A DNA stretch of 64,000 nt from NCBI GenBank assembly GCA_001692895.1, contig KV748189.1, positions 2,798,432 through 2,862,431 on the forward strand, read 5' to 3'. Positions 3,437 through 50,911 of the stretch are shown here, one piece after another; the stretch's first letter is position 1; each line of letters opens with the position of its first letter. The DNA is from Cenococcum geophilum 1.58. Lineage: Eukaryota; Ascomycota; Dothideomycetes; Gloniales; Gloniaceae. The notes under the pieces were generated by a model. It was given only the letters and a program-made list of their open reading frames with translations, was not told the DNA's origin and ran no database searches. The position numbers and the translations under genes are program-made.

Positions 3437-4705
3437 GTAGTACTTTATAAGATGCTTAATTGCCTTAACCTTAACTTTATAGCCTACTTACTAAAGAACC
3501 CTAAGTAATTAATAAACGGATAGGTGGCCGAAATAATAGTATAGTTGGCGTAACTTTAACTTAGTTAAGTAGCTTTAAGCAATACTCTTTTCTAGTTAGT
3601 AAAGGAGTAACTAGGGGTAACCTTATTTGCGTATAATAGGCACCTAATTATCTCTTTAAATAAGTATATTTTTAAGGTTATTAAGCTTAATACCTAATTT
3701 GTCTATATCTCTAATATAAAATAGAAATAGTGTGTTTGTAAAAATAACGTAAAATATAATATACCCTAAAGGGGTTTAAACCCTAATTGTGCTAAGAGAG
3801 ATTGTAGTACCCTTGCTAAAACGAATTATATATTGGCCTACTGTTAAATAGTTAATCTAAACAGAGCTATTAAGCTGCTAAAGGGCTTAAACTTAAGGTT
3901 CTCCTACTATAAATACTCCTGCGGCTTTAGTATCTGGTATAATACTATAAAAGACGTTTGCCGAGTATTTATTATTAAAAGAGAATATAGAACTCTCCCT
4001 TAGCTTATTAAAGATATCTAACTTTATAATAGAGTAGAGCGTAGATTAGTTATTAAGAATAGCAACGGTTTATATACTATTTACCTTACCATACTTAGTA
4101 AAGTATTGGTTAGGTAAGTAGTCCTTAATTTCTATATTTATAAGGAGCTATTCGGCCTTATTAACCTTACCCTTAAGATTTTCTACGCCTTTATATTAAA
4201 CTAAGAAGCTTTAAAAATAGGCTATAGTAACCTTATAATTTCTAACATTTCTTATACTTTGGCGAAACTTATTATATACCTCCTTTTGTTTATTAAGAAA
4301 ATGCCTAATTAACTAGCAATTTAGTTTCTTATAAACGTAGCACTTCTTCTAGCGATTACTTTAAAATGAACCTCTATAAGGACCTCCACCTTTACCTTAT
4401 AGTTGTTAATTATACTTTTTACCGTATTACTTACTACGGCCACTATATATTTAATTAGTCCAGTTATAATTATATTGGTTAGCCGGGTTAATTAAAGTAG
4501 GTTAAAGTTAGGCATTAAATTGCTATACTTCTTAAGAGCGTAGAGTAGTACTAATAGAAGATCTTAATTAAGTATATACTCCTTTATAAGTATTTATAGG
4601 ATTAAAGAGAGCAAGGATATACTTTTTAACGCCTTAATATACACTAATAACTTAATTACGTAGGCTAAAATCCTTTTAATATAATTTGGATAAATTACGC
4701 TAAAT
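3437..4705 (-). pseudogene. copia polyprotein relic, upstream (gag/protease-side) part
   Basis: This is the continuation of the interrupted copia on the far side of the LINE-like insertion, collinear with about 25798-27070 of copy F. It should encode the part between gag and the integrase catalytic core. I can align it to F by eye over its whole length but cannot assign a domain with confidence, because stops fall every few codons in every frame. It ends at TAAAT (4701-4705), the left target duplication of gypsy A. Confidence 0.6.
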
Positions 4706-5130
4706 TGTTACGGACGCTTTAAGTACAATGTTACGACTACTTAGAGAGGAGTTGGAAGAAGCTAGTTGGTTAATATAAGCACGGTCTAGGATGGAACCCG
4801 TAGAACCATATGACAAGGAATGGTAAGCAGAGTCACGTGATATAATCTGTATAATCTGTATAATCTATAAGATCTGTTATAAAGCGAACAGAGTAGACAG
4901 AGCAGATAGAGTAACAACTTTCTTAGGAGTACGGTTGTGTATTTAAGGACCCTTAGTCCCTACCTAGATAGTTTCTTCCTTGTAATAATTCTTAAAATAC
5001 AATTAGAGTTAATCTATTGGGCAACCACTCCACTAGTTATTATTACGTTATTAACTTTTATACTTATATTTCCTACACACCTAGCCTAATAACAAGTCTA
5101 CCGTAGTTCTTGCTATAAGGTTCCGTTATA
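4706..5130 (+). repeat. 5' LTR of gypsy A
   Basis: 425 bp, starting TGTTACGGACGC and ending TTCCGTTATA, the last dinucleotide being a RIP-altered CA. It is followed by TAATCACTACC and then the gag leader. I see no standard TGG-type tRNA primer-binding site after the LTR. Confidence 0.9.
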
Positions 5131-5174
5131 TAATCACTACCTAGTTATAGTATTAATATAAGAAGTTAAACAAT

Positions 5175-8100
5175 ATGCTACTAAAAGCAGCTACTATAAC
5201 GCCATTAACGGCAGCAACTACTTTAAGGACAGGAGGTAATACTAGTATAGCGGATACTAACTTATAGCAACCTATAACGGTTGGACAGCTATAGGAAATA
5301 GTTAACTAGCTAATAGCTAATAATATAGTGTTAAAAGAAAGACTTAACGGGATAGGAGTAGTAAAGATTAAGCTATTATTAATTAAGAGATTTATAGGAG
5401 AGAAGTTAAAGCTTAAAGGATTCCTTATATAGATGTACTTTAAGGTCTTATAGGAGGGAGTAAAGTTACTTATACCTGTGGATCGGATAGCCTATATAGG
5501 ACTATTCTTATTAGGAAAAGTACTTAAGTGGTTTAAACCTTACTTTATAGAGATATAGGCAAACGGAATAACGACCACTAATTAAAACGTGCAATTTATA
5601 TTCTTAAGTTAGGAAGGATTTGCGGAATAACTTACGCAGATATTTAGAGACCTGGAAGGAATAACTATAGTAGAAAGAAAACTCTAGAACCTTGTATAAT
5701 AAACTTTAGTAATTAAGTATATAATATAGTTCTAGATACTAGTAATATAAGTAGAGTGGAATAATAGGGCGCTTATAGCATAGTATAAATAGGGACTTAA
5801 GGCTAAAGTTTAGGACGTAATTATCCTAATGGAAGATGTGGACACCCTAAGGGAACTAATAAATTAGGCGATTAAGATTAATAATTAGATTTACTAAAGG
5901 GAACAGGCTAAGAGAGGCTAGGATAGAGTTCTATAGTTATATAAGGCGCAGAGTATATAATAATAAAAGTTAAGTTAGAAACTATGGTATGGCGTAGAGC
6001 TAATGGACCTAAGTGGTACTAAAGAAGCCTATAAGAGATAGAGCAAACTATAGAAACCCAGAGGATAAGGATTAAGTAATTAAAGGTCTAAGGAGTAGAG
6101 GCCGAATTAGGAATCTTAATAGTAGAAGATATTTAGGCGGACTCTATAATAAGAAAAATGGTTTAAAGAAGAAGCTTATATAAATTGCGGAAAATAGGGT
6201 TATTATGTTAGAGACTATAGAAGTGGGTAGAGTTACCATATAGTAAAGGGTATAAGACTAGTAGACGATATATACGTATAAAGGGATAATAATATACTAT
6301 AAGGAATAAAAGAGTGTTTAATTAGAAGTTTTGCGTTTTGTTATAATAACGTATGCTAAATTTATAAGGATACTAAGTACGGCGCAAGCTATTAGCTATA
6401 AAAGCTAGCACCTATAGGATATAGAGGAACCAACGAACTAGTTCGTAGATTGGATATTAAGGATAATAAATTCGACCTAGGTAAAACATTTTATAATAAT
6501 AAGGCAATAAGGGCCGCTTACTAGGAGTGAGTAGACCTTAGAGATATTATACTAGAGGTAGAGGATAATTCTACTACAGAATAGGAAACATTAGTAGGGA
6601 TTAAAACCCTACTAGATATAATGTCTATCGCTTCGCGAGACGTAAGAGAAGTAGGATAGTAAACTACTTTAGTACTTAATAAAGGCAAAAGGCTAAAGGC
6701 TTAAGATTCTTATAGCGAGATAAGAGATAACTAAGATTCTTAAAATGAGATAAGGTAAGCTTAAGGACCTATAATAGACGATAACCGATGGAGTAGAGTA
6801 GTAGCTTAGTTTAAAGATATATAAATGAGCTTAGGACAGAGGTTCCTATAGGTATAAGATTCTTAAGACGAGATAAGTGAGATTTAAGACTCTTAAGACG
6901 AGATAAGAATACTAAGTAAGCCTAGTTAGATTAAGGCTAGAGCTAAGCTTAAGTTAGAAGCGAGCTTGGGATTAAAGAATCTAAAGGGTTAAGAATTCGG
7001 GGTATAAATTAGGACACCTATAGATAAGAGGCAAGGAGCTTCTTTATAGATTAGAGAATCTACGGCATAAACAGCAATTAGACTAGGAGACGAATATATA
7101 GACCTAAAGGATTTATTAGTTAAACGAAGTGTTCGGACTAAAGATTAAAAAGTTAATACTAGGATTAAGAAGTAAGACGACTTTAAGGATTAGAGCGCAA
7201 GGCGCAAACCAAAAAAAACTATGGAAGAGTTTAGGTAAAGAATTATCGTATAGCAAGAATAGAAACTAGATAAGAGATCTAGCATATTAGGACGTATAAA
7301 GGACAGAGTACTAGTATAAAGAATTACTAATAGGCTAAGAGCAGGTACACTAAGAGCTAAGTGGCTTACTAAATTAGAAGATGAAGAGGATCTAGGGATT
7401 TTAACTAGGTTTAAGGAACGACATATAAAGGGCTATTACGATATAGTAATAAAAAGATACTTCTTTACGGACAGGCCGTATATACTCTAGTAGCTGTACC
7501 AAAAGTAGTATAGGCAATGACGTAATGATGAGTAGGAAGATTTCTACATATAGTTGGATGAAAAAGTTATTTAAAACCACCCGATTATAGAAAAGGCCAT
7601 AACGTATATTAAAGGAGCCTTAATTATAATGTTAAAGGATCTAGAGGAACGTTTAGAGGACTAGAGAAGTAAGAGGCGTATCTTAGTACCTGCGAATGAA
7701 GTTATAACGTTTAGATTAGTATAATAAAGGTTTAAACTTAGGGACGAAGATAAGCTAAGAGTTGATCTAAAGCACCTAGTATACCACACGTTATTATAGA
7801 TTACGTATATAGACGATATATGCGAAATATATAAGAATCTAAAAGAAAAGAATTGGAAATACCCTATAAGGATATACTGGATAACGGACGAGTAATAGTA
7901 TAGGAATACTAAATATATATATAGATGGCATCCAGCAGAGGTCTAAAAGGAAGGAAGTTTAGTACTTTAACTAGGAAGATTTCTTACGGAAGAATGCTTA
8001 GATGGATAATAGTGGTAGGAATACCTAGAAAACACGTGTCTATAGTATATTAAAGATAAAAAGCGAACTAGGCATTGGCTAAAGAGTGAGCTAAGTATAC

Positions 8101-11100
8101 TAGGATTAAGCAGCTAATAGTTAGGAAAAGTAGAGGCCTATAGGACTAAAGGGAGCTAGTAGTAGAGCCTTAGACCCTTAAAGGAATTTAAGGACAATAC
8201 CTAAATTTACGAGTTAATTGGCAAGATTAGCAGTTTAAAGCGCTAATAGATAGTAAAGCAATATAAAACCATATCTTATTAGCAGTAGTTAAGAAAATGG
8301 GGCTACCTTATAGATAAAAGGAGTAACCTTACCTATTAGTTACGATTTTAGGAGATCTAATAACCTATAGAGGAGGGATTATTAATCTTAAAATAGGACC
8401 TATTTAGATAACTATTAAAGGGAGATAAATTAAGATGTCTTTTAATATCCTACTATTAGGATGGGACGAGGCAGTGTTAAATATGCCTTAGTTATAGGAA
8501 TATAATCTAAGGATTAATTAGATTATAAGTTAGGTTAATATTAGAAATACTTAACGCTATAAGATGCGATAATAAGCTAAGATGGTATAGTACTAAGTAG
8601 GAGCAACCTATAAAGAAATAGAAAAAGGACTAAGTTATATACTAAAGAGATACTATAAGTATGGCAAGAAACTATGGTTACTAAAAAGTAAAAAGCTGTT
8701 AGAATATGTAGTATAGGACTATAAGATAGAGTTAGAACTAGAAATAAGTCTAAAGTTCTTTCTAATCTATAAGCTTACTAAAGAAGAAGGTAGAGCGTTA
8801 AAAGAGTTTATCTAGGAAAACCTATAAAAGGGATATATTAGACTATCGCAGTTATTAGCGGGTTATCTAGTACTATTTATACTAAAGAAGAATGGTAAAC
8901 TAAGGCTGTATATTAACTATAGACAGTTAAACAGCATTACTAGGAAGGATAGGTATTCTTTACCCTTAATTAGCGAAATCTAAGATAGGATAGGTAATGC
9001 GTAAATCTTTACGAAGATAGATCTAAGATAGGCGTACTATTAGATTAGGATTAAGGAAGGCGATAAATAAAAGGCAGCCTTTAGGTTAAAGGAAGGACTA
9101 TATAAACTATTAGTTATATAATTCGGGCTTATAAACGCACTAGCAATGTTTTAGAAGCGTATTAATAATATATTAGGAGAACACTTAAATGAATTTGTTA
9201 TAGTATATTTTAACGATATTATTATTTACTTAATAACTAAGGAAGAACACGGAGAATACGTTAAATGGGTCTTAAAAAGACTATAAGAAGAACAGATACT
9301 AGTAGCAATTAAGAAATGCGAGTTCTTTACTAGGAAGACCGATTTCGTTAAATTTATTATTAAACTAGGCCAACTTAGTATAGATCTAAAGAAGATTAAG
9401 GCTATAGTGAATTAGTAGGAACTAGAGAACGTTATACAGTTAAGATTATTCCTAGGGTTTTGCAATTACTGTAGAAGGTTTATAGCGCAATAGTTAAAGG
9501 ACATTAAGCTATTTATAAGGTTAATAAAGAAAGAAGAACTATAGGTATAGGGAGAGGAGTAAAGAGAACTCTTTAAGAAAGTTAAAGAGTTGTTTACCTA
9601 GGAGCTAGTTCTTAAGATCTATTAACTAGGACTAGAGACGGTTGTAGAAATAGATGTATTAGACTATATACTAGGGGCGTGCTTTATATAAAGGTATTAA
9701 GATGGATAGCACCTAGTAGTATACTATAGTTGGAAGATAATACTACCGGAGTTAAACTATAACATCTATAATAAGGAGTTGTTAGGTATAGTTACAGTAT
9801 TAAAGGAATAGAGAGCATTTTTATAAGGTATAGAGAAACTATTTATAGTTAAGACGGATTATAAAAACCTAATAAGATTCCTAATAATAAAGGAACTTAA
9901 CTAAAGATAGGTTAGATGGGCAGAGATACTTATAGAATACTATTTTAAGATTTAGTATACTAAAGGTATAGATAATACGCGGGCAGACGCTTTAAGCTAT
10001 AAAGCTAAACTATAAAATAAGGAAAAGCCATTAGGGGCTTTATTACAAAAAGATATAAACGGATTAATTAGGTATAATTATCCGAAAATTGTAGCAACTT
10101 AAGAAGATAATAAACTAGAGNAAGTCTATGAGATACTAGAAAGCTTTTGGGTATAAAGAATTCTAAAAGTATAGCTAAAAGATCTATAGATGGATATATA
10201 TAAGAATTAAGAAGTAAAGTATATCCTAAGAAGTATAGTAGAGTAGTTTATAGAGGACTTCTATAAGGGATTAACTTAAGGATATAATAGAGCTATGGGC
10301 TTAGTGTTAAGACTCTAAGAAGAGTATATTATTAACGGAATCTAAAGGATAGCTAGAAAGGTTATAAAGGAATATTTAGATTACTAAAGGAATAAACCGA
10401 CGAGGTATAAGCTATATAGAGGGCTATAACCTATTAAGATACTAGAGAGACTATAGGAGGTTATATTATAGGACTTTATTATTAAGTTGCTAAAATTAAA
10501 AGACCCTATTACCGGATAAGATTATAACGCGATTTTAGTAATAGTAGATAAGCTTATAAAGTAGGGATACTTTATAGCATGTATAGAAGAAATCTTAGCG
10601 GAAGATATCGCTAGAATCTATATTAAAGAAGTGTTTATAAGATATAGAGCANTAAGNAAGATTATATCGGATAGAGATTTAAGATTTGTAGCAGTATTCT
10701 AGGAAGTGTTCTTAGCGGAGCAAGGAGTTTAAGTAGTAACTTCTACTATATATTATCCGCAGATAGACGGTTAAACGGAAAGGTTAAATTAGACGCTAGA
10801 GCAGTACCTAAGGCATTATATTAATTATGTATAAAATAATTAGGTATCGCTATTATTAGTTATATAGTTTACATATAATATAACACCTTAAGAAGAAATA
10901 GATATATTACTATTTAAGGCAAATTATAGATACGAGCTAAGAATATCGTTATTACTATAGTAAGTAAAGAAAACGAGTAGTATAGCTAAAGAGAGAATAA
11001 AGACGTTAATAAATCTTTATATAGACCTTATAGAATTAGNAAAGAAAGTATAAGAGAGAATAAAAAAGTACTATAATGCTAAGAGATCTAAGGGACTAGA

Positions 11101-11520
11101 TCTTAAGGAGGGAAATAAAGTATAGCTACTATATAAAAATTTTAAGAGTTAATAACTAAGTAAGAAATTGGACTACGTTAGACTAGGACCTTTTAAAATT
11201 ATATAAAGGATTTCACCGGTTACGTTTAAGTTAAACCTATTAGCTAAAATAAAGATCTACCCTATATAGCATATCGCAATACTAGAGCTAGTATATAGGA
11301 ATATTAAGCCACTAGTTTATAAAGCAAACACGTATAGAGGACAAGAAGAAGACAAATGGTAAGTATTAAAGATTATTAATTATAAGAATATTAATGACGA
11401 GATATGGTATAAGGTTAAGTGGATAGGCTATACTAAGACTACCTAGGAGCTATTAGAGAATTTAAAGAACGCTATAGGAAAGGTATAGGAGTATTAAAAG
11501 AGATTAGGTTAGGTAGTATT
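5175..11520 (+). pseudogene. gypsy A gag-pol relic with chromodomain
   Basis: The frame starts at an ATG at 5175 and is interrupted by very many TAA/TAG. Gag runs to about 6250 and ends in a degenerate CCHC knuckle at about 6183-6216, where a His and Cys positions have become Tyr and a Gln a stop. The aspartic protease DSG triad at 8249-8257 reads DSK. Reverse transcriptase lies at about 8850-9600; its catalytic FDD near 9208-9220 reads FND. RNase H lies at about 9620-10020. Integrase lies at about 10270-11000, with recognisable 'VDK', 'DRDLRF' and 'YYPQTDG' blocks of the DDE core. The chromodomain is at about 11355-11510 around 'WYKVKWIGYTKTTWE'-like residues; it would normally target integration to methylated heterochromatin. 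Every enzyme is dead in this copy. Confidence 0.88.
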
Positions 11521-12231
11521 AATAAAAAAGGATTGCCAAAGAATAAGTTACCTAAGGGGGACCTAAGAAGAGCAGTTGCCGAACTACTTAAATCTGTTTT
11601 CTTCTCTATTAGAAGAGAATCCGTTTTTTTATTACCTAGTTCCTATAGACCTTATTCTATAAGTTTCTACTCCTTAAAGTAAACCTTCTTACGAACGCGT
11701 TAAAGACGCTAAACTTTTATAAAGGTAGACTACTAAGCCTTAAGGGTATAAGCAGATTCTTTGGATCGATAATAGGCTTCCGCTAGCGCTACGGTAAGAT
11801 TACCCTTAAGTTTTTCTGCCTTAGATTAAATATAAGACCCTAAAATAAATTAATTAGGGAACTAGACAACTATTAAGAGTAATAGGTCGTGTATATTTAA
11901 TATTAGAGATAGAGCGAACGTTATAGGATAACCGAATATTTGCTTTAGTATACTCTAAACAAGAGGAAGGTTGCTAGGACGAAGGACTTGCCAACGCAAT
12001 ATAAACTAGCCCCTCTTTTACATAATAAGAATACGGAGATGGTATTATCTCACTAAGAGATAATATTATAGCAACGGTACGAGACTAACGGGCTATAGAG
12101 GAAGAAGAAGGTACTTTAGGTATTATAAGTAATAATATTAACTAAATTAATTAGATAGATATTATACCTCTAGTAAACAACCTAAAGATACTAAATATCT
12201 TTAAGGACGAAGATAAAGAGGAGGGAGATGG

Positions 12232-12656
12232 TATTATGGACGCTTTAAGTACAATATTATAACTACTTAGAGAGGAGTTGGAAGAAGCTAGTTAGTTAAT
12301 ATAAGTACGGTCTAGGATAGAACCCATAAAACTATATAACAAGGAATAGTAAGCAGAGTCACGTAATGTAATCTGTATAATTTATATAATCTGTAAGATC
12401 TATTATAGAGCGAATAGAGTAGATAGAGCAGATAGAGCAACAACTTTCTTAGGAGTATGGTTGTGTATTTAAGGACCCTTAATCCCTACCTAGATAGTTC
12501 CTTCCTTATAGTAATTCTTAAAATATAATTAGAGTTAATCTGTTAGGCAACTACTCCACCAGTTGTTATTACGTTGTTGACTTTTATACTTGCATTTCCT
12601 ACACACCTAGCCCAATAACGAGCCCACCATAGTTCTTGCTATAAGGTTCCGTTACA
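12232..12656 (+). repeat. 3' LTR of gypsy A
   Basis: 425 bp, the same length as the 5' LTR. Its start reads TATTATGGACGC, where the 5' LTR has TGTTACGGACGC, so the differences seen are transitions. It is preceded by the polypurine tract at about 12217-12231 and followed by TAAAT, the right target duplication. Confidence 0.9.
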
Positions 12657-12663
12657 TAAATCG

Positions 12664-13089
12664 TGTTACGGACGCTTTAAGTACGATGTTATAACTACTT
12701 GGAGAAGAGATGGAAGAAGCTAGTTGGTTAATATAAGCACGGTCTAGGATAGAGCCGATAGAACTATGTAACGAGGAATAGTAACTAAGGTTATATAATA
12801 TGCTACGTATTAAACGAGAGGAACGAGAGGAACTCACGTACCTTATATATAAGACGTATATTACGTATAAGAAGGATTTTATAGGAGTACGGTTGTGTAT
12901 TTAAGGACCCTTAGTCCCTACCTAGATAGTTCCTTTCTTATAGTAATTCTTAGAATATAATTAGAGTTAATCTGTTAGGCAACTACTCCACTAGTTGTTA
13001 TTATTGTGTCGACTTTTGTACTTATATTTCCTATACACCTAGCCTAATAATAGGACCTACCGTAGTTCCTACTATAAGGTTCCGTTACA
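12664..13089 (+). repeat. 5' LTR of gypsy B
   Basis: 426 bp, from TGTTACGGACGC to TTCCGTTACA, with intact terminal dinucleotides. It differs from A's LTR in the stretch around 12790-12880, which A replaces with a different short-repeat tract (ATAATCTGT-like units at about 4841-4870). Confidence 0.9.
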
Positions 13090-13133
13090 CAATCACTACC
13101 TAGTTATAGTATTAATATAATAAGTTGGATAAT

Positions 13134-16100
13134 ATGCCACCAAAAGCAGCCACTATAACGCTATTAATGGTAGCAACTATATCGAGGTTAGGTAACGACA
13201 CTAGTATAGTAGACACTGACTTATAGTAACCTATAACGGTCGGACAGCTATAAGAGATAGTTGACTAGCTAATAGAAAATAATGTAACGTTAGAAAATAG
13301 GATTAACGGGATAGGCGCAGCAAAGGTTAAGTTACTATTAATTAAAAGGTACTTAGGAGAGAGATTAAAGCTTAAAGGATTCCTTATGTAAATGCACTTT
13401 AAAGTAGCGTAAGAGGGAGCTAAGCTGGTAATACCTATGGATTAAATAGTATACGCAGGATTGTTCTTAATAGGAAGAGCACTTAAATGGTTTAAGCCTT
13501 ACCTTATAGAAATCTAGGTAAACGGAATAATAATAACGAACTAAGAAGTACGGTTTATGTTCTTAAGCTGGAATAGATTTATAGAGCGACTTATATAAAT
13601 GTTTAGAGACCTAAAGGCAGTAACTATAGCGGAAAGAAAACTTTAAGATATTACGTAATAAACCTTAGCAATTAAGTATATAATATAGTTCCAGACGTTA
13701 GTAATATAAGTTAAGTAGAATAATAGGGCACTTATAGCATAGTATAAACAGGGACTTAAGGCTAAAGTTTAGGACGTGATTATTCTAATAGAAGATGCGG
13801 ATACCCTAAGGGAACTAATAGATTAGGCGATTAAGATTAATAATTAGATCTACTAAAGGGAATAGGCCAAGAGAGGTTAGGATAGAGTTCTATAGTTATA
13901 TAAGGCGTAGAGTATATAACGACTAAAGCTAAGTTAAAAACTATAGTATAGCGTAGAGTTAATAGACCTAAGTAGTACTAAAGAAGCCTATAAGAGATAA
14001 AGTAAGAAACCGTGAAAACCTAGGGGATAAGGATTAAGTAATTAAAGGTCTAAGAAGCAGAGGCTAAACCAAGGATCTTAGTAGCAGAAGATGTTTAGGC
14101 AGACTCTATAGTAAAAGTAATAGTTTAGAGAGGGAGCTTATATAAATTATAGGAAATAAGGTTACTTTGTAAGGGATTATAAAGATAGTTAGAGATACTA
14201 TGCAATAAAGAGAACTAGATTAATAGTAGACAATATATACGTATAGAGGGATAATAATATACTACAAGGAATAAAAGAGTGTTTAATTAAAAGTTTTACG
14301 TTTTATTATAATAACGCATGCTAAATTTATAAGGACGCTAAGTATGGCGTAAGCTACTAGCTATAGGAGCTAGCACCTATAGGATATAAAGGTACTAATA
14401 AACTAGTTCGCAGATCGGATATTAAAGATAATAAATTTAATAAAGGCGAAATATTCCGTAATAATAAGGTAATAAGAGCGGTTTACTGGGAACACGCAGC
14501 CATTAGAGATATTATACTAAAGATAGAGAATAATTCCACTACAGAACAGGGAATATTAGTAGGGATTGAGACCCTACTAGATATAATGTCTATCGCTTCG
14601 CGAGACGTAAGAGAAGTAGGATAGCGAACTATTTCGGCACTTAATAAAGGCAAAAGGCTAAAGGCTTAAGATTCTTAAGATAAGATAAGAGACGACTAAG
14701 ATTCTTAAGACGAGATAAGGTAAGCTTAAGGACCTATAACGGACGAAAACTAATAGAGTAGAGTAGTAGCTTAGTTTAAAGATATACGAATAAGCTTGGG
14801 ATAGAGGTTCCCATAGGTATAAGATTCTTAAGACGAGATAAGGTAAGCTTAAGGACCTATAACGGACGAAAACTAATAGAGTAGAGTAGTAGCTTAGTTT
14901 AAAGATATACGAATAAGCTTGGGATAGAGGTTCCCATAGGTATAAGATTCTTAAGACGAGATAAGTGAGATTTAAGACTCTTAAGACGAGATAAGAACAC
15001 TAAGTAAGCCTAGTTGGACTAAGGCTAGAGCTAAGCTTAAGTTAGAAGCGAGCTTAGGATTAAAGAATTTAAGGGACTAAGAATTTGGGGTATAAATTAG
15101 GGCACCCATAGGTAAGAGGTAAGGAGCTTTATTATAGATTAGAGAATCTATAATATAAATAGCAACTAGACTAGGAGATAGATATATAGACCTAGAGGAC
15201 TTACTAGTAGAATATAGTGTTTGGATTAAAGATTAAAGAGTTAATACTAAGATTAAAAAGTAAGAAGACTTTAAGGATCTATTAGTAAGATATAGACTAA
15301 AAGAAACTATAGAAGAGTTTAGATAAAGAATTATTATATAGCAAGAACAAAAACTAGATAAGAAATCTAGTATATTAGGACATATAAAGGATAGAGCGCT
15401 AGTATAAAGAATTACTAATAGACCTAGGGTAGGCATACTAAGAGCTAAGTGGCTTACTAAACTAGAAAACGAAGAGGATTTAGGGATTTTAACTAGGTTC
15501 GAGGAACGACATACTAAAGGTTATTATAACGCAGTAATAAGAAGATACTTCCTTATGGATAAGCCGTATATACTCTAGCAGCTATACTAAAAGTGGTATA
15601 GGTAGCGATATAATAATAAATAGGAAGATTTCTATATATAGTTAAACAAAAAAGTTATTTAAGACCACCTAATTATAGAAAAGGCTATAAATTACATTAA
15701 AGGAGCCTTAATTATAATGTTAAAGGATCTAGAGGAGTGTTTAGAGGACTAGAGAAGTAAAAGATATATCTTAGTACCTGCGAATAAAGTCGTAACGTTT
15801 AGATTAGCACGATAGAGGTTTAAACTTAAGGATAAAGACGAGCTAAGAGTTAATCTAAAGCACCTAGCACACTATATATTATCATGGATTGTATACGTGG
15901 ATAATATATATAAAATACATAAGAATCCAAAAAAAAAAGAATCGGAAATACCCTATAAGGATATACTAGATAACGGATAAGTAATAGTATAGGAATATTA
16001 AATATATATATAGATGGCATCTAGCAGAAGTCTAAGAGGAAGGAAATTTAATACTTTAATCAGGAAGATTCCTTATAGAAAAATGCCTAGAAGGATAATA

Positions 16101-19100
16101 GTAGTGGGAATACCTAGAGAATACGTGTTTATAGTATATTAAAGATAAAAAGCGAACTAGATATTAGCTAAAGAGCGAGCTAAGTATAATAGGATTAAGT
16201 AGCTAATAGTTAGGAAAAGTAGAGGCCTATAGAACTAGAGGGAGCTAGTAATAGAGCCTTAGACCCTTAAAGGAATTTAAGGATAACACCTAAATTTATA
16301 AATTAAATAGTAAGATTAATAGTTTAAAGCGCTAATAGATAGTGGAGTAATAAGAAACCATATTTTACTAGTAGTAGTTAAGAGAATAGGGCTACCTTAT
16401 AGATAGAAGGAACAATTTTACCTATTAGTTACAATTTTAGGAGATCTAATAGCCTATAGAGGAGGGATTATTAATCTTAAAACAGGACCTATTTAGTTAA
16501 CTATTAAAGGAAGACAAATTAAGATGTCTTTTAATATCCTACTATTAGGACGGGATGAGGCAGTATTAGAAATACCTTAGTTATAGAAATACAATCTAAA
16601 GATCGATTGGATTATAGGTTAGGTTAATATTAAAAATACTTAACGCCGTAAAATATAATAACAAGCTAAGTTGGTATAGTACTAAGTCGGAGTAATATAT
16701 AAGGAGACTAAGCGAGGCTTAAGTTATATACTAAAGAAATACTATAAGTACGGCAAGAAACTATAGTTACTAGAAAGTAAGAAGCTGTTAGAGTATATAG
16801 CATAGGACTATAAGATAGAATTAGAACTAGAAATAAGTCTAAGGTTCTTTTTAATCTATAAGCTTACCGAAGAAGAAGGTAGAGCATTAAAAAAGTTTAT
16901 TTAGAAAAACCTATAAAAGAAATATATTAGACTATTATAGTTATTAGCGGGATATCCAGTACTATTTATACTAAAGAAAAATAGCAAACTAAGGCTGTGT
17001 ATTAACTATAGATAGTTAAACAGCATTACTAAAAAGGATAGGTATCTTTTACCCTTAATTAGCGAAATCTAAGACAGAATAGGTAATGCGTAAATCTTTA
17101 TAAAGATAGATCTAAGATAGGCGTACTATTAGATTAGGATTAAGGAAGGCAATAAATAGAAAGTAGCCTTTAGGTTAAAGGAAGGACTATATAAACTATT
17201 AGTTATGCAATTTAGGCTTATAAACGCACTAATAACGTTTTAAAAGCGTATTAATAACGTATTAGGAAAACACTTAGATGAATTTATTATAGTATACCTT
17301 AATAATATTATTATCTACTTAATAACTAAGGAAAAACACGGGGAATACGTTAAATGGGTTTTAAAGAGACTATAAGAAGAATAGATACTAGTAGTAATTA
17401 AGAAATATAAGTTTTTTACCAGGAAGACCGATTTTGTTAGATTTATTATTAAACTAGGCTAACTTAGTATAGATCTAAAAAAGATTAAGGCTATAGTAAA
17501 TTGGCAAGAACTAGAGAATATTACGCAGTTAAAATCGTTTTTAGGGTTTTATAATTACTATAGAAGGTTTATAGCGTAATAGTTAAAGGATATTAAACTA
17601 TTTACACAATTAATAAAGAAAGAAGAACTATAGGTATGGGGAGAGGAATAATAAGAACTTTTTAAGAAAGTTAAAGAGTTGTTTACCTAGGAGCTAGTTT
17701 TTAAAATCTATTAACTAGGACTAGAGACGGTTATAGAAACAGATATATTAAACTATATACTAGGGGCATACTTTATATAAAAATATTAAGATAAATAGCA
17801 CCTAGTAGTATACTATAGTTAAAAGATAACACTACTAGAGTTAAACTATAATATCTATAATAAGGAGTTATTAGGTATAGTTACAGTATTAAAGAAATAG
17901 AGAGTATTTTTATAAGGTATAAAGAAACTATTTATAGTTAAGACGGATTATAAGAACCTAATAAGATTCCTAATAACGAAGGAACTTAACTAAAGATAGG
18001 TTAAATGGGCAGAGATGCTTATAGAATACTATTTCAAGATTTAGTATACTAAGGGTATAGACAACACGCGGGTAGATACTCTAAGCCGTAAAGCTAAACT
18101 ATAAAAAGACATAGACGGATTAATTAGGTATAATTATCCGAAAATTGCAGCAACTTAAGAGAAATTAGATAGAGTTTATAAGTTACTAAAAAGCTTTTAG
18201 GCGTAAAGAATTCTAAAAGTATAGCTAGAAGATCTATAGATAGATATATATAAGAATTAAGAAGTAAAGTATATCCTAAGAAGTATAGCAGAGTAATTTA
18301 TAAAAGAATTCTATAAGGGATTAACTTAAGGATATAATGGAGCCGCGGGCTTAGTGTTAAGACTTTAAGAGGAGTATATTGTTAACGGAATCTAGAAAAT
18401 AGCTAGGAAGGTTATAAAGGAGTGTCTAAATTACTAAAGGAATAAATTAATAAGGTATAAGCTATATAGAGGGCTATAACCTATTAAAACACCAGAGAGA
18501 CTATAGGAGGTTATATTATAAAACTTTATTATTAAGTTATTAAAGTTAAGAGATCCTATTACTGGATAAGATTATAATATGATTTTAGTAATAGTGGACA
18601 AGCTTATAAAGTGGGGATACTTTATAGCATATATAGAAGAAATATTAGTAGAAGATATCGCTAAAATTTATATTAAAGAAGTGTTTATAAGATATAGAGC
18701 ACTAAGTAAGATTATATTAGATAGAGATCTAAGATTTATAGCAGTATTTTGGGAAGTATTTTTAGTAGAGTAAGGAGTTTAAGCAGTAACTTTTACCGCA
18801 TATTATCCGCAGATAGACGGTTAAACGGAAAGATTAAATTAGATACTAGAGCAGTATCTAAAATACTATATTAATTATACATAGAATAATTGGGTATTAT
18901 TATTACTAATTATATAGTTTATATACAATATAATACCTTAAGAAGAAATAGGTATATTACTATTTAAGGCAAATTATAGATATAAGCTAAGAATATTGTT
19001 ATTACTACGGCAAGTAAGGAAAACAAGTAGTATAGCTAAAAAAAAGAATAAAGACGTTAATAAATCTTTATATAGACCTTATAGAATTAGTAAAGAAAGC

Positions 19101-19560
19101 ATAAAAAAGAATAAAAAGGTACTATAATGCTAAGAGATTTAAGGGACTAGATCTTAAGGAGGGAGATAAAGTATAGCTACTATACAAAAATTTTAAGAGT
19201 TAACGACTAAGTAAGAAGTTGGACTATGTTAGACTAGGACCTTTTAAAATTATATAAAGAATTTTACTAGTTATATTTAAGTTAAACCTATTAGCTAAAA
19301 TAAAGATCTACCCTATATAGTATATTATAATGCTAAAGCCAATATACGGGAATATTAAGCCACTAGTTTATAAAGTAGATATATATAGAGGATAGAAAGA
19401 AAATAAATAGCAAGTTTTAAAGATCGTTAGTTATAAGAACATTAACGATAAAATATGGTATAAGGTTAAGTAGATAGGCTACACTAAGACTACCTAGGAG
19501 CTACTAGAGAATTTAAAGAACGTTATAGGAAAGGTATAGGAGTATCGGAAGAAATTAGGT
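13134..19560 (+). pseudogene. gypsy B gag-pol relic with chromodomain
   Basis: The frame opens at an ATG at 13134 and is destroyed by many TAA/TAG. Gag covers about 13134-14250. It has a recognisable retrotransposon-gag core ('GRALKWFKPYLIEI') and a mutated zinc knuckle near 14140-14190. The protease DSG is intact at 16338-16346. Reverse transcriptase is at about 16880-17600; the catalytic FDD reads LNN near 17297-17305. RNase H is at about 17640-18110. Integrase is at about 18290-19000, with an uninterrupted piece at 18579-18773 that includes the 'LDRDLRF' block. The chromodomain is at about 19400-19560. An acidic linker rich in DSQDEIR-like heptads precedes the protease and is locally duplicated. 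Confidence 0.88.
14701..14946 (+). repeat. 123-bp in-frame tandem duplication in gypsy B linker
   Basis: Two near-identical 123-bp units (41 codons each) lie head to tail. The first starts ATTCTTAAGA at 14701 and the second starts with the same bases at 14824. A (about 6700-6850) and C (about 56250-56430) each have a single unit. The encoded linker carries repeated DSQDEIR-like heptads, which may have promoted slippage. The length is a multiple of three. Confidence 0.85.
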
Positions 19561-20282
19561 TAGGTAGTATTAATAAAGAAAGATTACTAAAGAACGAGTT
19601 ACCTAAGGGGGACCTAAAAAGAGCAGTTACCGAGCTACTCGGATCTATTTCCTTCTCTATTAAAGGAAAATCCGTTCTTTTATTACCAAGTTCCTATAAA
19701 CCTTATTTTATAAGTTTCCACTCCTTAGAATAAACCTTCTTATAGACCTTCTTAAGACGGAGTAAATAAGTAGACGCCGCGATCTAAGCATTTAGGGCCT
19801 TTTGTTTAGCATTATAAGAACATTCTAACTTAGTAAGGGCTTAAGACAGTTTACTATCTAGCTGTGTAGTAGTAGATTAAATATAAGACCCTAAGATAAA
19901 TTAATTAAGAAACTAGACGACTATTAAGAGTAATAGGTTATATATATTTAGCATTAGAGGTAGAGTAAACGTTATAGGACAAATAAATATTCGCTTTAGT
20001 GCACTTTAAGTAAGAGGACGGTTATTATAAAGATGGGTTCGCCAATATAATATAAACTAGCCCCTTTTTTAAACAATAAGAACATAAAGACGGTATAATC
20101 TTACTAAGAGATAATATTGCAGTAATAGTGCGAGCACGACGTTGGGCGTATAAAGAAGAAATTGCTTTAGGTATAATGAGCAATAATATTAATTAAATTA
20201 ATTAAACGGATATTACACCTCTAGTAAATAACTTAGAGATATTAGGAATCTTTAAGGACAAAGATAAAGAGGAGGGAGATGG

Positions 20283-20708
20283 TATTATAGACGCTTTAAG
20301 TATAATATTATAACTACTTAGAGAAGAGACGAAAGAAGCTAGTTAGTTAATATAAGTATAGTCTAGGATAGAGCCGATAGAACTATATAATAAGGAATAG
20401 TAACTAAGGTTATATAATATGCTATATATTAAATAAGAGGAATAAAAAGAATTTATATACCTTATATATAAGACGTATATTACGTATAAGAAGGATTTTA
20501 TAGGAGTATGGTTATGTATTTAAGGACCCTTAATCCCTACCTAGATAGTTCCTTCCTTATAGTAATTCTTAGAATATAATTAGAGTTAATCTATTAGGCA
20601 ACCACTCCACCAGTTGTTATTATTGTGTCGACTTTTATACTTGCATTTCCTACACACCTAGCCCAATAACAGGACCCACCGTAGTTCCTACTACAAGGTT
20701 CCGTTACA
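20283..20708 (+). repeat. 3' LTR of gypsy B
   Basis: 426 bp. The start reads TATTATAGACGC, a RIP-altered TGTTACGGACGC. It is preceded by a polypurine tract (about 20268-20282) and ends TTCCGTTACA at 20708, followed by the AATCG target duplication. Confidence 0.9.
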
Positions 20709-20713
20709 AATCG

Positions 20714-23149: not shown

Positions 23150-26100
23150 ATAGAGTATTTGTGTTAATAAACGTCTCTAATGCCTTATTTAGGTTTACCT
23201 TTATTATTGCATCTACTGGGTTATCTTAACCATTAATCCATTAAATCTTAAAGAGTTCTTAACGCTTGTAAGATTGCTATAGTACTATAATATTAATTAT
23301 AAGGCGCTTCTTCTTTATAGTACTAAGCTTGACTAAATACTTATAGAGGGAATATAAGTCGGTGTATATAATTGTAGGGATAATAGGGAGTTTAAGTCGA
23401 TCTATAATTATCTTTAAGGTAGTTCCAATTGTAATTACTATGTTAACTCCGCTACTATTCTATATATCTCTAACATTAGAATGCTTTAAGTAATATATTT
23501 ACTCTTAGTTAAGCTCTAATAGATAAGATTACCGTAGATTATAAAGTTACTCTCTCTAGTAGATTTGTTCGCGATAATAATCTTATATTCTAGTTAGGAG
23601 CTAAAATCTTTATTATTTATAAACGATCTATTAATAAATATAAAAAGCTTAGTAGTAGGAAGGTTAATAGGTATATAGAGCAGTCCTTAATTAAGATAGC
23701 TCCTTTGCCAGAAAAAACGCTTATTTAGGGCAAGGATGTCCTCCTTAGTTAGTTCTTAGTATTAAGCGGCAACAAAGAAATTAAAGGAAGCTTTAGGTTA
23801 ACAGATAGAAGCTATATAAGCTCTATAAGTGCGTTGCTCCATATATCCTTACTTTAAAGAATTAATATTAATAACATTAATCTTCTTGCTTTAACCTTTC
23901 TGGCGTAGGGCAATAGAATCCTTATTTAGGGAAATGATATATCTATTAAAGAGTAATAGTGTTATTAAATTAAGTCTTTCCTTTGGCTTTGCTATAAGAT
24001 TTACCTTTACTAGCTTATCTTCTTTAAGAGCTAAGAATTAGTTATCTCCTAAGATGATTATATTATCTATTTATATGCCAACAATTCTAAATAGAGTTCC
24101 TATAGCTATAATAAGGAAGTAGGGATTAAATATAGAAGTAGTTATTAAAAGCTTCTCTTTATAGTGCTTACTATAAGTAGCCTACTAATAAGTTCCTGCC
24201 TCTGCAATTCTATATAGTGGCTTAAGCATAACTATAATCGTATCTTTGGGATATTAGTGGCGAATTTACTCTAGAAGGTATGCTAGTATTAAGCGCTAAA
24301 GGCGTGTCTCTAATTAGGTATAGGCCTAGGTGATATCTTATAAATAAACCACCATTCTATTCTTTATTAAGGAGGGAGCTAGTGCAATAATAACTTACTA
24401 ACTAGCTTGTTAAATTATAGGGGATTGCGTAAGAATTACTTCCTTACTATTATTATTATAACCTTAAATAACTAGCCTTAACTTCTTAAATGGGGTATTA
24501 GTAGCTTTACCTTTAATCTTATTAACTATTTTTAACCTAAATATACGAACCCTATTAAACTTAGTAGGGTTATACTTCTTAAACTTAAAGACTCCTCTTA
24601 TAATAAGACCGTTAATCTCCTACTTATTAGATGCTTAGAAAGGAGCTCCTAGAGTTATAATATGGCCTTCCTTTTAGAGCTGTTTTGCGAGCTTAAAGTT
24701 AGCCTTCTCTTTAGCTATTATAAAGGCCATTAACAGCTTAACTCTATTCTTGATGGCGGTAAAGAGTTACTCTTTAAAATTAATAAGGTATTAGCGGTTT
24801 CGTAATCCTTTTGGGCGACCTTTACCGCGTTATAGTTACGGCGTATCTACTACAGTTATATTAGGGTCGTAGTCGCCTTCTAAGGCACGTTAATTGTAGT
24901 TCTCCTCTAGGGCATCTCCTAGGGTATCTTCTAGGGTATCCTATAAAGGCTCGGAACTATCATCTTTATAGTAAGGCTTAATAACAGTTAAATGGAATTA
25001 AGTAGGTCTATGGGGCATCTAAAGAGTATAAGTCTAACCATTAATTATAATAAGTTTATATAGGCCTAACTATTTTCCCTTTTTACGCTATACGCGTACC
25101 TTAGATTGGAGTGGCAGATTAAGCATAGTTAAGGTATTTGGGCCATTTCTTATTCCTAGTGCGTTGTTAACCTAGCGCGTAGCGTAGAGACGTTATACCT
25201 CCTTTATTGCCTTATAAATCGCCTTAGCTTATTATATAATAGAGGGAGATAATAAAGAATCATTAGTTATTTAAGGGTAGGCGCTAAAGACTAGTAATAT
25301 AGGTACGAGCCTATCTAGGCTAGCGGTATTATTAATAGCCTTAATAGCTATCTATAGGATAAGCTCTTCGCTAGTACCCTTTAGTTTTAAAGAAATAATC
25401 TTATATACGCGGCGTAATAGCGTATAGTATCGTTCTACCTTTCCAATACTATTATATGCCTTAATAGGGACTTCCTTAACCTTAATTATTATTACCTTTG
25501 CCTATTATTAAAACTCTATAGATAAGAAGTTCTTTCCTACATTATAAATGATTTAATTAGGGGGTCCTAGGTAGATATTAATCTAGCATAATTAAAGAGT
25601 ATCCTATACGTTCCTAGCTAATATATCTTTTTAAAAAGCGTGCGGCTTAGGAGGAGGTTAAGAAGTTAATAACTTGGAGTACTAGCTTGCCGCTAAGATA
25701 TATAACATCTATAATAATATAAAAGTTAAAGTTGTAGTTGTCTTTAAGGGTAAACTTAAATCGGCTAGGGGACTTCTAGTTTATTTAGTAGTAATAGCAG
25801 TACTTTATAAGATGTTTAATCGCCTTAACCTTAACTTCATAACCTGCTCGTTAAAGAACCCTAAGTAGTTAGTAAACGGATAGGTGGCCAAAACAATAAT
25901 GTAGTTAACGTAGCTCTAACTTAGTTAAGTAACTCTAAGTAACGCTCCTTTCTAGCTATTAAAGGAGTAACTAAGGGTGACCCTACTTGCGTATAACGGG
26001 CACCCGATTATCTCTCTAAATAAGTATATTCTTAAGGTTGTTAAGCTTAATGCCTAATTTATCTATATCTTAGATGCAGAATAGGAACGGGGTATTTGTG

Positions 26101-28414
26101 GGAATAATATAGAAAGTAATATATCCTAATAGGGTTTGGACCTTAATTATGCTAAGAGAGATTATAGTACCCTTACTAAAGCGAATTATATATTGGCCTG
26201 CCGTTAATTAGTTAATCTAAATAGAACTATTAAGCTGCTAAAGAGCTTAGACTTAAGGTTCTCCTACTATAGATACTCCTACGGCTCTAGTATCTGGTAT
26301 AATACCATAAAAGACGTTCGCCGAGTATTTATTATTAAAGGAGAACGCGGAACTTTCCTTTAGCTTATTAAAGATATTTAACCTTATAATAGAATGGAGC
26401 GTAGATTAGTCATTAAAGACAGTAACGGTTTGTGTGCTATTTACCTTACTATACTTAGTAAAGTATTAGTTAGAAGAGTAGTTTTTAATTTCTATATCTA
26501 TAAGGAGCTGTTCAGCCTTATTAATCTTACCCTTAAGATCTTCTTCGCCTTTATATTAAACCAGGAAGCTTTGGAAGTAGGCTATAGTAACTTCTTAATT
26601 TTTAACGTTTCGTGCGCTCTAGCGAAACTTATTATATACCTCCTTTTATTTATTAAGGGGGTGTCTAGTTAACTAGTAATTTGGCTTCTTATAAACGTAG
26701 CATTTCTTTTGCCAATTATTATAAAATAAACCTCTACAAGGACCTCTATAATTACTTTATAGTTAATATTAATTATACCCTCTACTATATCCCCTACCAC
26801 AACCACTATATATTTAATTAGTCTAGTTATAATCGTGTTAGTTAGCCGGGTTAATTAAAGTAGGTTAGAGTTAGGCGTTAAATTGCTATACTTTTTAAGA
26901 GCGTAGGGCGGTGCTAATAGAGGATCTTAATTAAGTATATACTCCTTTATAAGTACTTATAGGGTTAAAGAGAGTAAGGTTATATTCTTTAACACCTTAG
27001 TATATACTAATAACTTAATCGCATAGGCTAAAGTCCTCTTAATATGATTCGGATAAACCACGCTAAATTATCTAGAGTTAATTAAAGAGCTTTTAAAGAC
27101 AATTGAGTTAAGAGGTACCTAGGTTTATAGCAATAATTCTTAGGAAGGTAGTCTCTCTTTACTCCGACATATACTACTGCTTATTCTCCTCTATTTTAAA
27201 GTGGCATCTTGTTTTATATATTATTTGGTTAAAATTATATCCTTTTTCTGCTAAACGATTATAGTAGAAGGTACTAGCTTGGCCCTTAAGTATAACTAAA
27301 TAAGTAATATAGTATTAATTGGGTTCTAGTTTAACCTTCTGGTAACAGTTATAGAAGATACGTAACTTTAAATTAAGGATATTATATAGTTCTCTACTAA
27401 ACTTCTTCTCCTGTTTTAAATAGAGCTTTATAAGCTTTATAAGTATTTTTAAGGTACCTCTAATTAGTGTTTAGCTATATTGCATTGTAGGCTATAATAG
27501 TGACGTAGATCTAGTCGGCGGAGTTTAAAGGTTATTAGACCGCGAAGTAAGGGGATCTTACGCTTATTAGGGGTTGTTAATTAAGGCTATAGGTTAAGCT
27601 GGTTAATATAGGGGAGTTAAAGATAGAGGTAGAGGCGATAGATGTGGAATGTTAGAACTTGTGCCTAAAGCAATAGAGTTAGAACGCGTCTCTAGTGGTA
27701 TATTACTTAGGTTCCATTATAATTTAAGCTTCTTTATAGTACGTAGTTAGTGCTTAATCTCTTATAGAGTCCATTTATGCTCTTCCTTTATATTAATAAC
27801 GTGTTCCTAAATATTATCCCTAATACTACCCCTATCTATAGGGACAAATACTCTATACTCCCAAAGGAAGTTACGGAAGTCCCGTATAATATCTTTATTT
27901 ATAGGAACCTATATTTCCTTTATCTATCTAATAAAGTCCTCCTTTATATAATACCATAGCGCGGTATTATCGTATTTGCTATCTTTATAGTATTCTATAT
28001 AGTGTACTAAGAATCTATTTAAGTCCTATTGCTTAGCGGTTATAAAGTTAGTTATGGCTCTGTCCTATGTCTTTGGGTTAATATCTTTCTTATACTTCTT
28101 TGGATAGGTTAACGCCATGGTAGGTAAAATCGACGAGGTGTTATACGTCAAAGGTAGGTAGGATTTTCGGTTTTATAGGATCTTGTAGGTTTGCTGTCTA
28201 AAGGTAGGCAATTTAAGATATTGTTTAACGCGTTTTAGACGTTAACTTAGGACCTTAGGTTTAGTGATACTTCTAACCTAAAGTACTTAACTAAATCTTT
28301 GTAAACGTGATTGTTCTGCGTAATAGACGCAACTTGGTATCTCCTAGTACTTAGTAACACTTTTATTACTAGTTTTCCGTAAGTCTAAGGTAGTATAGTA
28401 TTGCCGGGATCCAT
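23150..28414 (-). pseudogene. copia F polyprotein relic
   Basis: The probable start is the ATG at 28414 (MDPGN). The frame is broken by many stops. Domains seen on the minus strand are gag-side sequence to about 27000, then integrase with 'GKNFL' and 'SIGKVERYY' near 25400-25530, then a basic 'RGRGRPKGL' stretch near 24815. RVT_2 spans about 23900-24600; its double-Asp active site reads 'TDNIIILGD' near 24040-24080. RNase H lies at 23180-23480, with 'DLYSLYKYLVKL' and 'WINGQDNP.DA'-like motifs in which Gln is now a stop. Several residues match what is known of fungal copia Pol. The plus-strand ORFs at 26394 and 27777 are antisense shadows. Confidence 0.82.
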
Positions 28415-28510
28415 TCCATATAAGTGTATATAGCACCCCTATATAAGACTATCTCTTCTATTAATAACCTAGCTGCTCTATAGTTAACTGTGTATTTAAC
28501 CACTAATTAG

Positions 28511-28704
28511 TGTTAGAAATATAGGGTAAATTACTAATACTACTTGAGTAGATATAGTAATGGAATAGGTTCTTGTTCTAGATAGGGGAGGGTAAGGAAT
28601 TTAAGGTTCCTCACCACGCTAGTGCCGCGACGGCACGTGACGGCAAGTTGCCTCATGTGACGGTAATATGCCGTACGTAAGGGCAAATTGCCTCATTCCC
28701 GATA
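28511..28704 (-). repeat. 5' LTR of copia F
   Basis: 194 bp, identical in length to the 3' LTR. On the plus strand the last bases are GATA in place of GACA, a transition. CTTAC follows immediately as target duplication. Confidence 0.85.
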
Positions 28705-35300: not shown

Positions 35301-37799
35301 GTATTAAGCTATTCTTTATAGCTAAGAGTAGAAGGATATTGGAGATTGGGAGGCCTAGATTAATTAGGATTAATTACGGATATAAAAGTAGCTTAGTACT
35401 TAGCAAAAGCCGCCCTTAAGTCACTAGCTAACGGATCTGGCCTTAGGGCTGTTAAACTCTATAAGAAGCTATATATATAGCCACTACCTTATACCTACCA
35501 CTTATATTAAGACTAAAAGTCAGTACCATTAAATAGGCCTATAAGTACGTGCTTCCTAAACAGATTAAAGCGGCGATGTAGCCAGTAAGCAGCAATATGC
35601 GGATTATTATTAAGATTTTAAGAAGTAATCCGGTAGCGCTAAGCCTTATTAGTAGCCTTATATTTATTAAATAGAGGTATATAAGAGTGTAGATTATGCT
35701 AATGTAGATTAGTAGCGCTAAGTGTAAAGAATAGAGACCTGCTCTTAATATTCTTAGTATAAGCCGTAAGCTTATTTCTCTTCTGCCTCTAGTAAGGTCT
35801 AGTGCCCTTAAGGTTCCGTATATACCGTATAATCTTATTTAGTAACTAGCTACCCCTATTGCCATTTATAAGATTACTAAGCTTATTTAAAGATAGACTA
35901 TTTTTATTTAATTAGCCGTAAAGGAAGCGGGTGGCGTTAAGGGCTTGCTCTCTTATAATTTAATTAAACACATAGTAGCGAAATAAGGGGTAGCGGCTAA
36001 ACTAACCGTCCTAATACTTAAGCATATGCTTAGTATACGCAGCTAGGGTAACTATACGGCTTTGTGGTATGTTAAAATCGGCTTTACCATAAGGAAACAG
36101 AGTAGGAAAGGCGCTGCGCATAATAAAGCTAGCTGATCGCTTAGAGAGAGGTGTTTGTTATATAGTAGGAACCTCTAAGCCCGCTTATAGGTCTTATTAG
36201 TGTTAAACCTTACAACCTAAAAGCTCTAATTTATTAAGGTTAGGTATTAAATCAGGAACTAAAGTATCTAGTACGTCGTTATTAAATTCACCGTCTAGTA
36301 TATTACTACCAAGCTTAGTAGGTAGAGGATTAATAGTAGGAGGACGTTATATAAGAGCAGTAGGGTAAGCTATTAGGCTACTAGAATTAGACTCTAACTT
36401 ATTAATATAAGGTAGCTAATCTAATATAGAGCCATTTTTAGGTAAGCTAGTAAGCCAAGTGCTATATATTTTAACGTCGCGATAATTAAAATAATTGGCC
36501 TTTAGAAAGTAAAGCCACTATACTATAGCAGAGCGCCTTATAGTATACCGCTTAGTAAACTACCGACCTAGGTATTCGCCACCCTCTACTGCCGTAGGCC
36601 TCACGACCAGTATATCGAGTTTAGTAGGTAGCCGTGGTAGCTGCCTCTAAGTCTTTAGTATGTTCTGGCCAAAGTAGTAAACATAGCTAGTATAGTGATA
36701 TTACTGGCCGCGTATACGCACGACTTGCAGATAAACGTATACGCGCGTAATTAGAAGCTCCTCTACCGCGGTAAGTATAGGTAGAAAGCCAGGAATAGGC
36801 CCCAGATTAAGCCCGTTGCTTTTACTAAATAGGGGAAAAAGGGTTAGATATTTAAGGCTATCGGCGTCCTTAATATAGGCTTTATATATACCTATATTGT
36901 TACCCTCTATAGCTAGGCCTATTTAGAACTACTACTCCTTACAATAACTGCACGTCTCTATATATTTAGCCTATAGTATACTCCTAAACTTTTTAATTTG
37001 CTCCTAATTAATAGCCGAAACGGGTAATAATGTAGCTGTAGTCGGAGCTTGCCGCAAGAAAGGTGGTATTAGTAGTAGGGTAGGTATTAGTAGTAGAGCA
37101 GGCATAGGAGCTAGTTCCGGTAAGGACGTATTTAGGCCATCTAGGGTACCTCTTCTGCTATATGGAGCTTTATCTATAGTATATAGCGGAGAAGTAAGCA
37201 AGTAAGCTTTACCCCGCCGATTAAGAATACGGTGCTCCCGTTATATTGCCCTAATTGTCTTCCGCCGTTAAGCTATTTTAGGGGTATTTTAACTGTTCTG
37301 GCCACAAGGTAAGAAGACGTCCTTAGTATCGGTTTTAGGTAAAGTATTTTGCTAGCGCTTTATAGGACGAGCCTTAGTAAAACCAAGCTCTGCTTTCTAC
37401 CTATTTAAATTATATTTAGAGCCCTAGGAAAGTAAGTAAAAGTAAAAAATATATATAGGGAAAACGCGCCTTTAACCGACACGATTAATATTACTTTAAA
37501 AGCTTAGTAGATAGGCCGTTTTTAATAAAATTAATATAGGGTTATATTAAACAGTACTTGCTACACTTAATTAGAGCAGGTTCTACTATAGTTAAGACGC
37601 GTATAGTAGTATTAATAGAGATATTAATAAAAAGGTTAATTTATTAATAGTGAGATCTTAAATATTTTAATGTTCGTCACGTGTATTCTGCAGGTAGATA
37701 CCGCCCGCGGTTTTTTTTTAGACCAATTAAAAGCCGGCTTGGCAAGGGTTTAAAATCTAGGACCTGAAAATATAGACCACTCGTACCTTAGGTCAATAA
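32384..37799 (-). mobile_element. Helitron, left copy, RIP-degraded
   Basis: Rolling-circle transposon recognised from its Rep/Pif1-helicase protein. The 5' end by homology with the other copy is at 37799, reading TTATTGACC on the minus strand. Just inside it an imperfect stem (GACCTGA / TTAGGTC) spans about 37771-37797. The 3' end is uncertain. Homology with the right copy continues past the helicase into the LTR, gag and 255-bp repeats, so either the Helitron carries these or they were duplicated with it. Unlike the right copy, it contains no insertion. Confidence 0.8.
32640..37400 (-). pseudogene. Helitron Rep-helicase relic (left copy)
   Basis: Minus-strand frame through stops. The N-terminal part (about 36300-37400) shows 'TCSYCK', 'VPGFLP', 'VEELL' and 'RGQQYHY'-type blocks known from fungal Helitrons; 37004-37201 is an uninterrupted piece of the true frame. 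The Rep HUH site near 35459-35488 reads 'GSGYIYS': both His codons have become Tyr. The Rep Tyr/Lys motif (YxxKYCSK type) lies at about 35000-35040. The helicase has Walker A 'EAGTGKLYLI' near 33975-34005, Walker B 'DEKSIIG' near 33735-33765, 'GNFHQLPP' near 33605-33640, and motifs V-VI at about 32790-32910. It would have nicked and unwound DNA for rolling-circle transposition; this copy is dead. Confidence 0.85.
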
Positions 37800-50486: not shown

Positions 50487-50911
50487 TATAACGGAACCTT
50501 ATAGCAAGAACTACGATAGGCTCGTTAATGGGCTAGGTGTGTAGGAAATGCAAGTACAAAAGTTAATAACGTAATAATAACTAGTGGAGTGGTTGCCCAA
50601 TAGATTAACTCTAATTGTATTCTAAGAATTACTATAAGGAAGGAACTATCTAGGTAGGGACTAAGGGTCCTTAAATATATAACCGTACTCTTATAAAATT
50701 CTTCTTATATATAATATACGTCTTATACGTAAGGTACGTAAGTTCCTTTTATTCCTCTTGTTTAATACGTAGCATATTATATAACCTTAGTTACTATTCC
50801 TTATTATATAGTTCTATCGGCTCCATCCTAGACTATGCCTAAATTAACTAACTAGCTTCTTTCGTCTCTTCTCTAAGTAGTTATAATATTGTACTTAAAG
50901 CGTCCGTAACA
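50487..50911 (-). repeat. 3' LTR of gypsy C
   Basis: 425 bp, from TATAACGGAACC to GCGTCCGTAACA on the plus strand. On the minus strand it is preceded by a purine-rich AAAGAGAAGAGAAATAG tract (about 50912-50930). Confidence 0.9.

Follow-up and report, generated by a model that had tools for sequence, protein, structure and literature searches.

Two Ty3/gypsy elements inserted two base pairs apart in Cenococcum geophilum: very probably chance neighbours from an abundant family

The chromodomain of the fungal chromovirus MAGGY is described as binding H3 methylated at K9 and, when fused to the integrase of Tf1, as steering that element to heterochromatin (PMC2832683). For nested long terminal repeat (LTR) retrotransposons of plants, another account tells of insertion into older elements, mostly with 5-bp target duplications, and of a weak palindromic target preference (PMC6911290). 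We compared with such systems two elements, A and B, that stand side by side in a 64,000-nucleotide stretch of the genome of C. geophilum 1.58 (contig KV748189.1, positions 2,798,432 to 2,862,431; hereafter the window). A and B belong to a Ty3/gypsy family of known kind that carries a chromodomain and is very abundant (Table 1). In our judgment they very probably represent two separate insertions that became adjacent by chance, and no local targeting is needed for their arrangement.

The LTRs of both elements start with TRTTAYRG and end with GTTAYA, and each element is bordered by a perfect target duplication, TAAAT in the case of A and AATCG in that of B, with TAAATCG as the common ancestral site. 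The two insertion points lie 2 bp apart, and the elements are parted by 7 bp of host sequence. Virtual removal of A and B leaves the empty site ACGCTAAATCGTCTAAAG, which aligns without a gap over 134 bp with copy F, the uninterrupted counterpart near 27065, at 18 differences, all 18 of them transitions. The positions of the duplications and this gapless alignment bear out the coordinates, the flanks and the ancestral site proposed by a first-pass annotation of the window, which had also held that two independent insertions occurred on the same strand and that their order cannot be read from the duplications. The first of these views holds because the outer flanks differ, four LTRs are present, and A and B possess different LTR variants; the second holds since either order yields an identical final sequence. 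The assignment of A and B to one family is sound for their interiors, whereas the LTRs fall into two variants, the 5' LTRs of A and B being separated by 31 transversions and three insertions or deletions (indels) over 424 compared columns.

These features lend themselves to a simple model. A and B would have inserted separately, and probably at independent times, into one older element, each presumably as cDNA integrated by the family's own integrase, and the two staggered cuts of this enzyme, each of the ordinary 5 bp, would have fallen 2 bp apart by chance. With so many copies in 177 Mb of DNA, one or a few such neighbours would be expected without any local targeting, and a weak palindromic target preference may help slightly.

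The evidence that carries this reading is a census of the entire genome sequence (177,193,698 bases). A pattern for the start of the LTR matched 4277 times (backward control, 0) and a pattern for its end 3951 times (backward control, 19); a longer start pattern that includes the preceding polypurine tract matched 1469 times. Under uniform placement, the expectation for pairs of termini at a distance of 0-30 nt is 2.96, made up of 1.48 pairs that run head-to-tail, 0.80 that meet head-to-head and 0.68 that meet tail-to-tail. The head-to-head, tail-to-tail and relaxed head-to-tail patterns relied on shorter stretches than the start and end patterns used for counting, so that these pair searches could only overfind relative to this expectation. 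Two genuine pairs were recovered at 0-30 nt in the whole genome: A and B themselves as the one head-to-tail case, and one tail-to-tail case; no head-to-head pair was found by the corresponding pattern at this distance. Set against a random expectation, as the first-pass annotation had suggested for near pairs, the count at 0-30 nt reveals no excess.

The candidates behind these counts were inspected individually. The strict head-to-tail pattern matched twice, at A/B and on contig 22 near 1125600. At the latter place the polypurine-tract stretch recurs between two LTRs; this is a tandem duplication of tract and LTR and not two insertions, and was rejected as a pair. Five further matches of the relaxed pattern (seven in total, including the strict two; backward control, 1) were dropped, as there is no LTR on one side. 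The tail-to-tail pattern led to a single genuine place, found on both strands, on contig 1 (6221830-6221860), where the LTR ends are 7 nt apart and the seven bases between them agree with those that come first after a 5' LTR. One copy thus seems to have landed in another's primer-binding region.

Several observations weigh against chance as a complete account. Within the narrower range of 0-7 nt, 0.76 terminus pairs are expected in total and two are seen (chance about 0.18), with 0.38 expected and one seen for the head-to-tail arrangement by itself. For insertion points separated by no more than 2 bp, whatever their orientation, the expected number is 0.07-0.17 with the full genome as target and 0.10-0.31 with the target reduced to 130 and 100 Mb; the insertion numbers behind these values (2310, 2900 and 3500) are rough scalings from the first 100 of the 4277 LTR starts. 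The patterns permit listed transitions only and therefore miss heavily mutated pairs, and the only neighbouring distance band counted was 31-61 nt. The single match in that band was rejected as a pair because one side carries no LTR, though a same-strand LTR end lies about 525 nt from the LTR start in question. When the positions within 1 kb are ranked by the target motif described below, the A site comes in the best 4% and the B site in the best 18%, ranks that are compatible with a modest local preference. By itself, the A/B pair is mildly unusual. It is, at the same time, a pair chosen after the fact, uncommon but not a signal.

The distribution of the family on a larger scale was assessed with the same first 100 starts, which cover 3.82 Mb of contig 1 and resolve into 32 pairs defined by their spacing and 36 singles. 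The 68 insertions deduced in this way are spaced in a near-Poisson manner, with squared-density ratios of 1.01-1.10 at scales of 25-200 kb. All 32 pairs were retrieved, and of the 36 singles sixteen, taken from those not listed with a polypurine tract; six of these 16 still possess a tract-like stretch upstream. The target motif was derived from the 30 sites with a duplication (two elements of the 32 without one were left out). It is weak and palindromic, with C as the first and G as the fifth duplicated base, A at position -3 and T at position +3. Twenty long loci were likewise left out, as they were the best matches to a query that included bases preceding B, and they favour a preceding G; the list of start positions was used instead. 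In the 1 kb around the joined site, on either side, about 27% of all positions outscore the median real site. The motif raises the expected coincidence of two insertions 2.7- to 4.2-fold at lag 0, but only 1.11- to 1.15-fold at lag 2; a shared hot spot would be expected to yield insertions at one and the same site rather than at a distance of two bases.

Base-scale targeting of the Ty3 or Tf1 type is the yardstick for a site-targeted retrotransposon. The first-pass annotation had suggested that A and B may reflect strong local targeting. In such a reading, the integrase, the chromodomain or the shape of the DNA would direct new insertions to the same few bases or to the termini of copies already present. 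The degraded chromodomain in A, the high rank of its site by the weak motif, and the existence of a second close pair on contig 1 at 6.22 Mb would agree with such steering. Against it stand the shortfall of genuine pairs (two versus about 3.0), the lack of head-to-head pairs in the genome-wide search, the near-Poisson spacing and a motif whose influence drops to about 1.1-fold at the relevant lag, and insertions that lie a few tens of bases from each other are no more frequent than expected. We therefore consider strong local targeting highly unlikely. As for its suggested agents, a degraded chromodomain is indeed present, yet none of the results shows it to act at the scale of base pairs, and targeting by a chromodomain would be expected to act on regions and not on single bases; the target motif is weak. 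In both genuine close pairs, one head-to-tail and the other tail-to-tail, exactly 7 nt separate the LTR termini. We give very little credence to the notion that the integrase slightly prefers to insert right beside existing LTR ends of its family, at about 7 bp.

An equally faint likelihood attaches to the idea that the junction at 12650-12670 is an assembly join of two loci. The surroundings are highly repetitive and the window contains 17 N, but none of these falls within 12640-12680, and a false join would have had to match both 5-bp duplications and to rebuild, without a gap, a site that corresponds to copy F. Scarcely credible is a single event, be it a dimeric cDNA, two cDNAs from one particle or a tandem sharing an LTR: the same-strand, head-to-tail adjacency of A and B and the tandem LTR retrotransposons of plants ascribed to single insertions in one study (PMC11899658) speak for it, but one event would give equal outer duplications in place of TAAAT and AATCG, which refutes a simple dimer, and the four LTRs, the differing LTR variants and the 7 bp of host DNA that part the elements do not fit a shared-LTR tandem.

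Two separate insertions, brought together by chance, thus remain our preferred reading. Their order might have been sought in the divergence between the LTRs of each element, a check suggested by the first-pass annotation. It fails here: A5 and A3 differ by 44 transitions and B5 and B3 by 43, with neither transversions nor indels in either comparison, and the LTR pair of element C, a third copy in the window, likewise differs by 38 transitions and no other change. When the window is divided into 32 bins of 2 kb, the TA/AT ratio is 1.4-2.1 and the (CA+TG)/(AC+GT) ratio 0.3-0.7 in 30 of them, all but those at 46001 and 48001. Such dinucleotide ratios, in combination with transition-only decay, are the signature of repeat-induced point mutation, which is the probable cause of the decay. 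The divergence of the LTRs consequently gauges repeat-induced mutation and not time, and it cannot order A and B. Total decay was rejected as a clock as well, the GC contents of 0.317 and 0.302 for A and B being no measure of age. Within B, a 123-bp unit occurs in tandem at 14697-14942, whereas it is single in A. Its copies are 100% identical, which is odd amid heavy decay and may reflect a recent duplication.

The family assignment rests on the flanks, the termini and the remnants of coding domains. Among the 32 elements from contig 1, picked without regard to their flanks, the 5-bp duplication is perfect in 25, one transition off in five and missing in two; one of these two probably represents mispaired LTRs, its 3' flank being the stretch that normally follows the 5' LTR. 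LTR ends of the TG...CA type, or their transition forms, together with a 5-bp duplication (at most one transition off) thus characterise 30 of 32 elements, as in chromoviruses. The chromovirus trait of a chromodomain at the C-terminus of the integrase was likewise found in A by phmmer. Among the PDB matches listed for this stretch, 16 of 20 are to MPP8, SUV39H1, HP1, CBX, Rhino and LHP1, which we take to be chromodomain proteins; a Pfam scan of the chromodomain stretch in A and in C gave no match. Downstream of the reverse transcriptase, an integrase-like stretch is found at 10565 in A and at 18570 in B, as judged from a weak PDB match and from motifs drawn in part from general knowledge, an arrangement that would correspond to the Ty3 order. 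The Ty3 Gag-Pol match of the B piece presumably falls in the integrase part of that protein; Pfam scans of the integrase-like stretch yielded no match, and none of ten short unbroken pieces matched Pfam. With both strands considered, the longest stop-to-stop frame that overlaps the element interior comprises 93 residues in A, 113 in B and 96 in C, so that no copy in the window retains an open coding region.

Table 1. Positions of elements A and B, their landmarks and related copies in the window
Feature	Position	Strand	Remarks
Target duplication TAAAT	4701-4705	+	5' side of element A
Element A	4706-12656	+	Ty3/gypsy-type, full length, mutated; LTRs and RVT_1 match
LTRs of A (425 bp)	A5 4706-5130; A3 12232-12656	+	
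Reverse transcriptase region of A	8828-9400	+	Stop-broken; RVT_1 PF00078, E 1.8e-21, stops entered as X
Degraded chromodomain of A	11345-11473	+	phmmer against PDB chains, best E 0.0085, stops entered as X
Inter-element TAAATCG	12657-12663	+	3' TAAAT of A (12657-12661) and 5' AATCG of B (12659-12663), 3-base overlap
Element B	12664-20708	+	Ty3/gypsy-type, full length, mutated; LTR variant other than that of A
LTRs of B (426 bp)	B5 12664-13089; B3 20283-20708	+	
Integrase-like piece of B	18570-18770	+	Ty3 Gag-Pol, sole PDB match, weak (E 0.29)
B stretch corresponding to the A chromodomain	19411-19524	+	Assigned by likeness to the A stretch alone
Target duplication AATCG	20709-20713	+	3' side of element B
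Uninterrupted host-site counterpart (copy F)	27004-27137	+	134-bp gapless alignment
Uninterrupted counterpart of the C insertion site	36880-36930 (near 36905)		Another copy
Element C, third family copy	50487-58437	-	Flanks CTCCA and CTCTA

The host element D (3-22265), split by A and B, adjoins copy F (23385-28656) in direct orientation. Their labelling as copia elements in the first-pass annotation could not be confirmed, as Pfam gave only matches below the curated cut-offs, in three of six pieces of the host element. Element C is a mosaic. It matches A in alignment columns 400-1600 (with 0-1 transversions per 400 columns, compared with 8-17 to B) and B in columns 6800-8000 and over the greater part of the 3' LTR (2-3, compared with 16-37 to A), while columns 2000-2800 fit both poorly. 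This patchwork suggests recombination between subfamilies, for instance through template switching. The LTRs of B and C differ by four transversions and one indel.

As a mechanism, the arrangement of A and B carries little weight. It is a worked case of a striking coincidence in a single window that becomes expected once the copy number has been counted, and it warns that insertions can be neither dated nor ordered by LTR divergence where transitions of the repeat-induced type dominate. No title on such an arrangement appeared among the matches listed in our literature searches for overlapping or adjacent duplications, and we do not claim that it is unpublished.

In their 5-bp duplications, in the degraded chromodomain and perhaps in the order of a reverse transcriptase followed by an integrase-like stretch, A and B resemble fungal chromoviruses such as MAGGY, from which they differ in being dead copies, full of transitions and stops. 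With the nested LTR retrotransposons of plants, as portrayed in that account (PMC6911290), they share insertion into an older element, 5-bp duplications and a weak palindromic preference; in contrast to those, they are copies of the same family placed 7 bp apart in one host copy and are not nested in each other. The tandem LTR retrotransposons described for plants (PMC11899658) are same-strand, head-to-tail copies as well, but they have common internal LTRs and one outer duplication, whereas A and B possess four LTRs and two different duplications.

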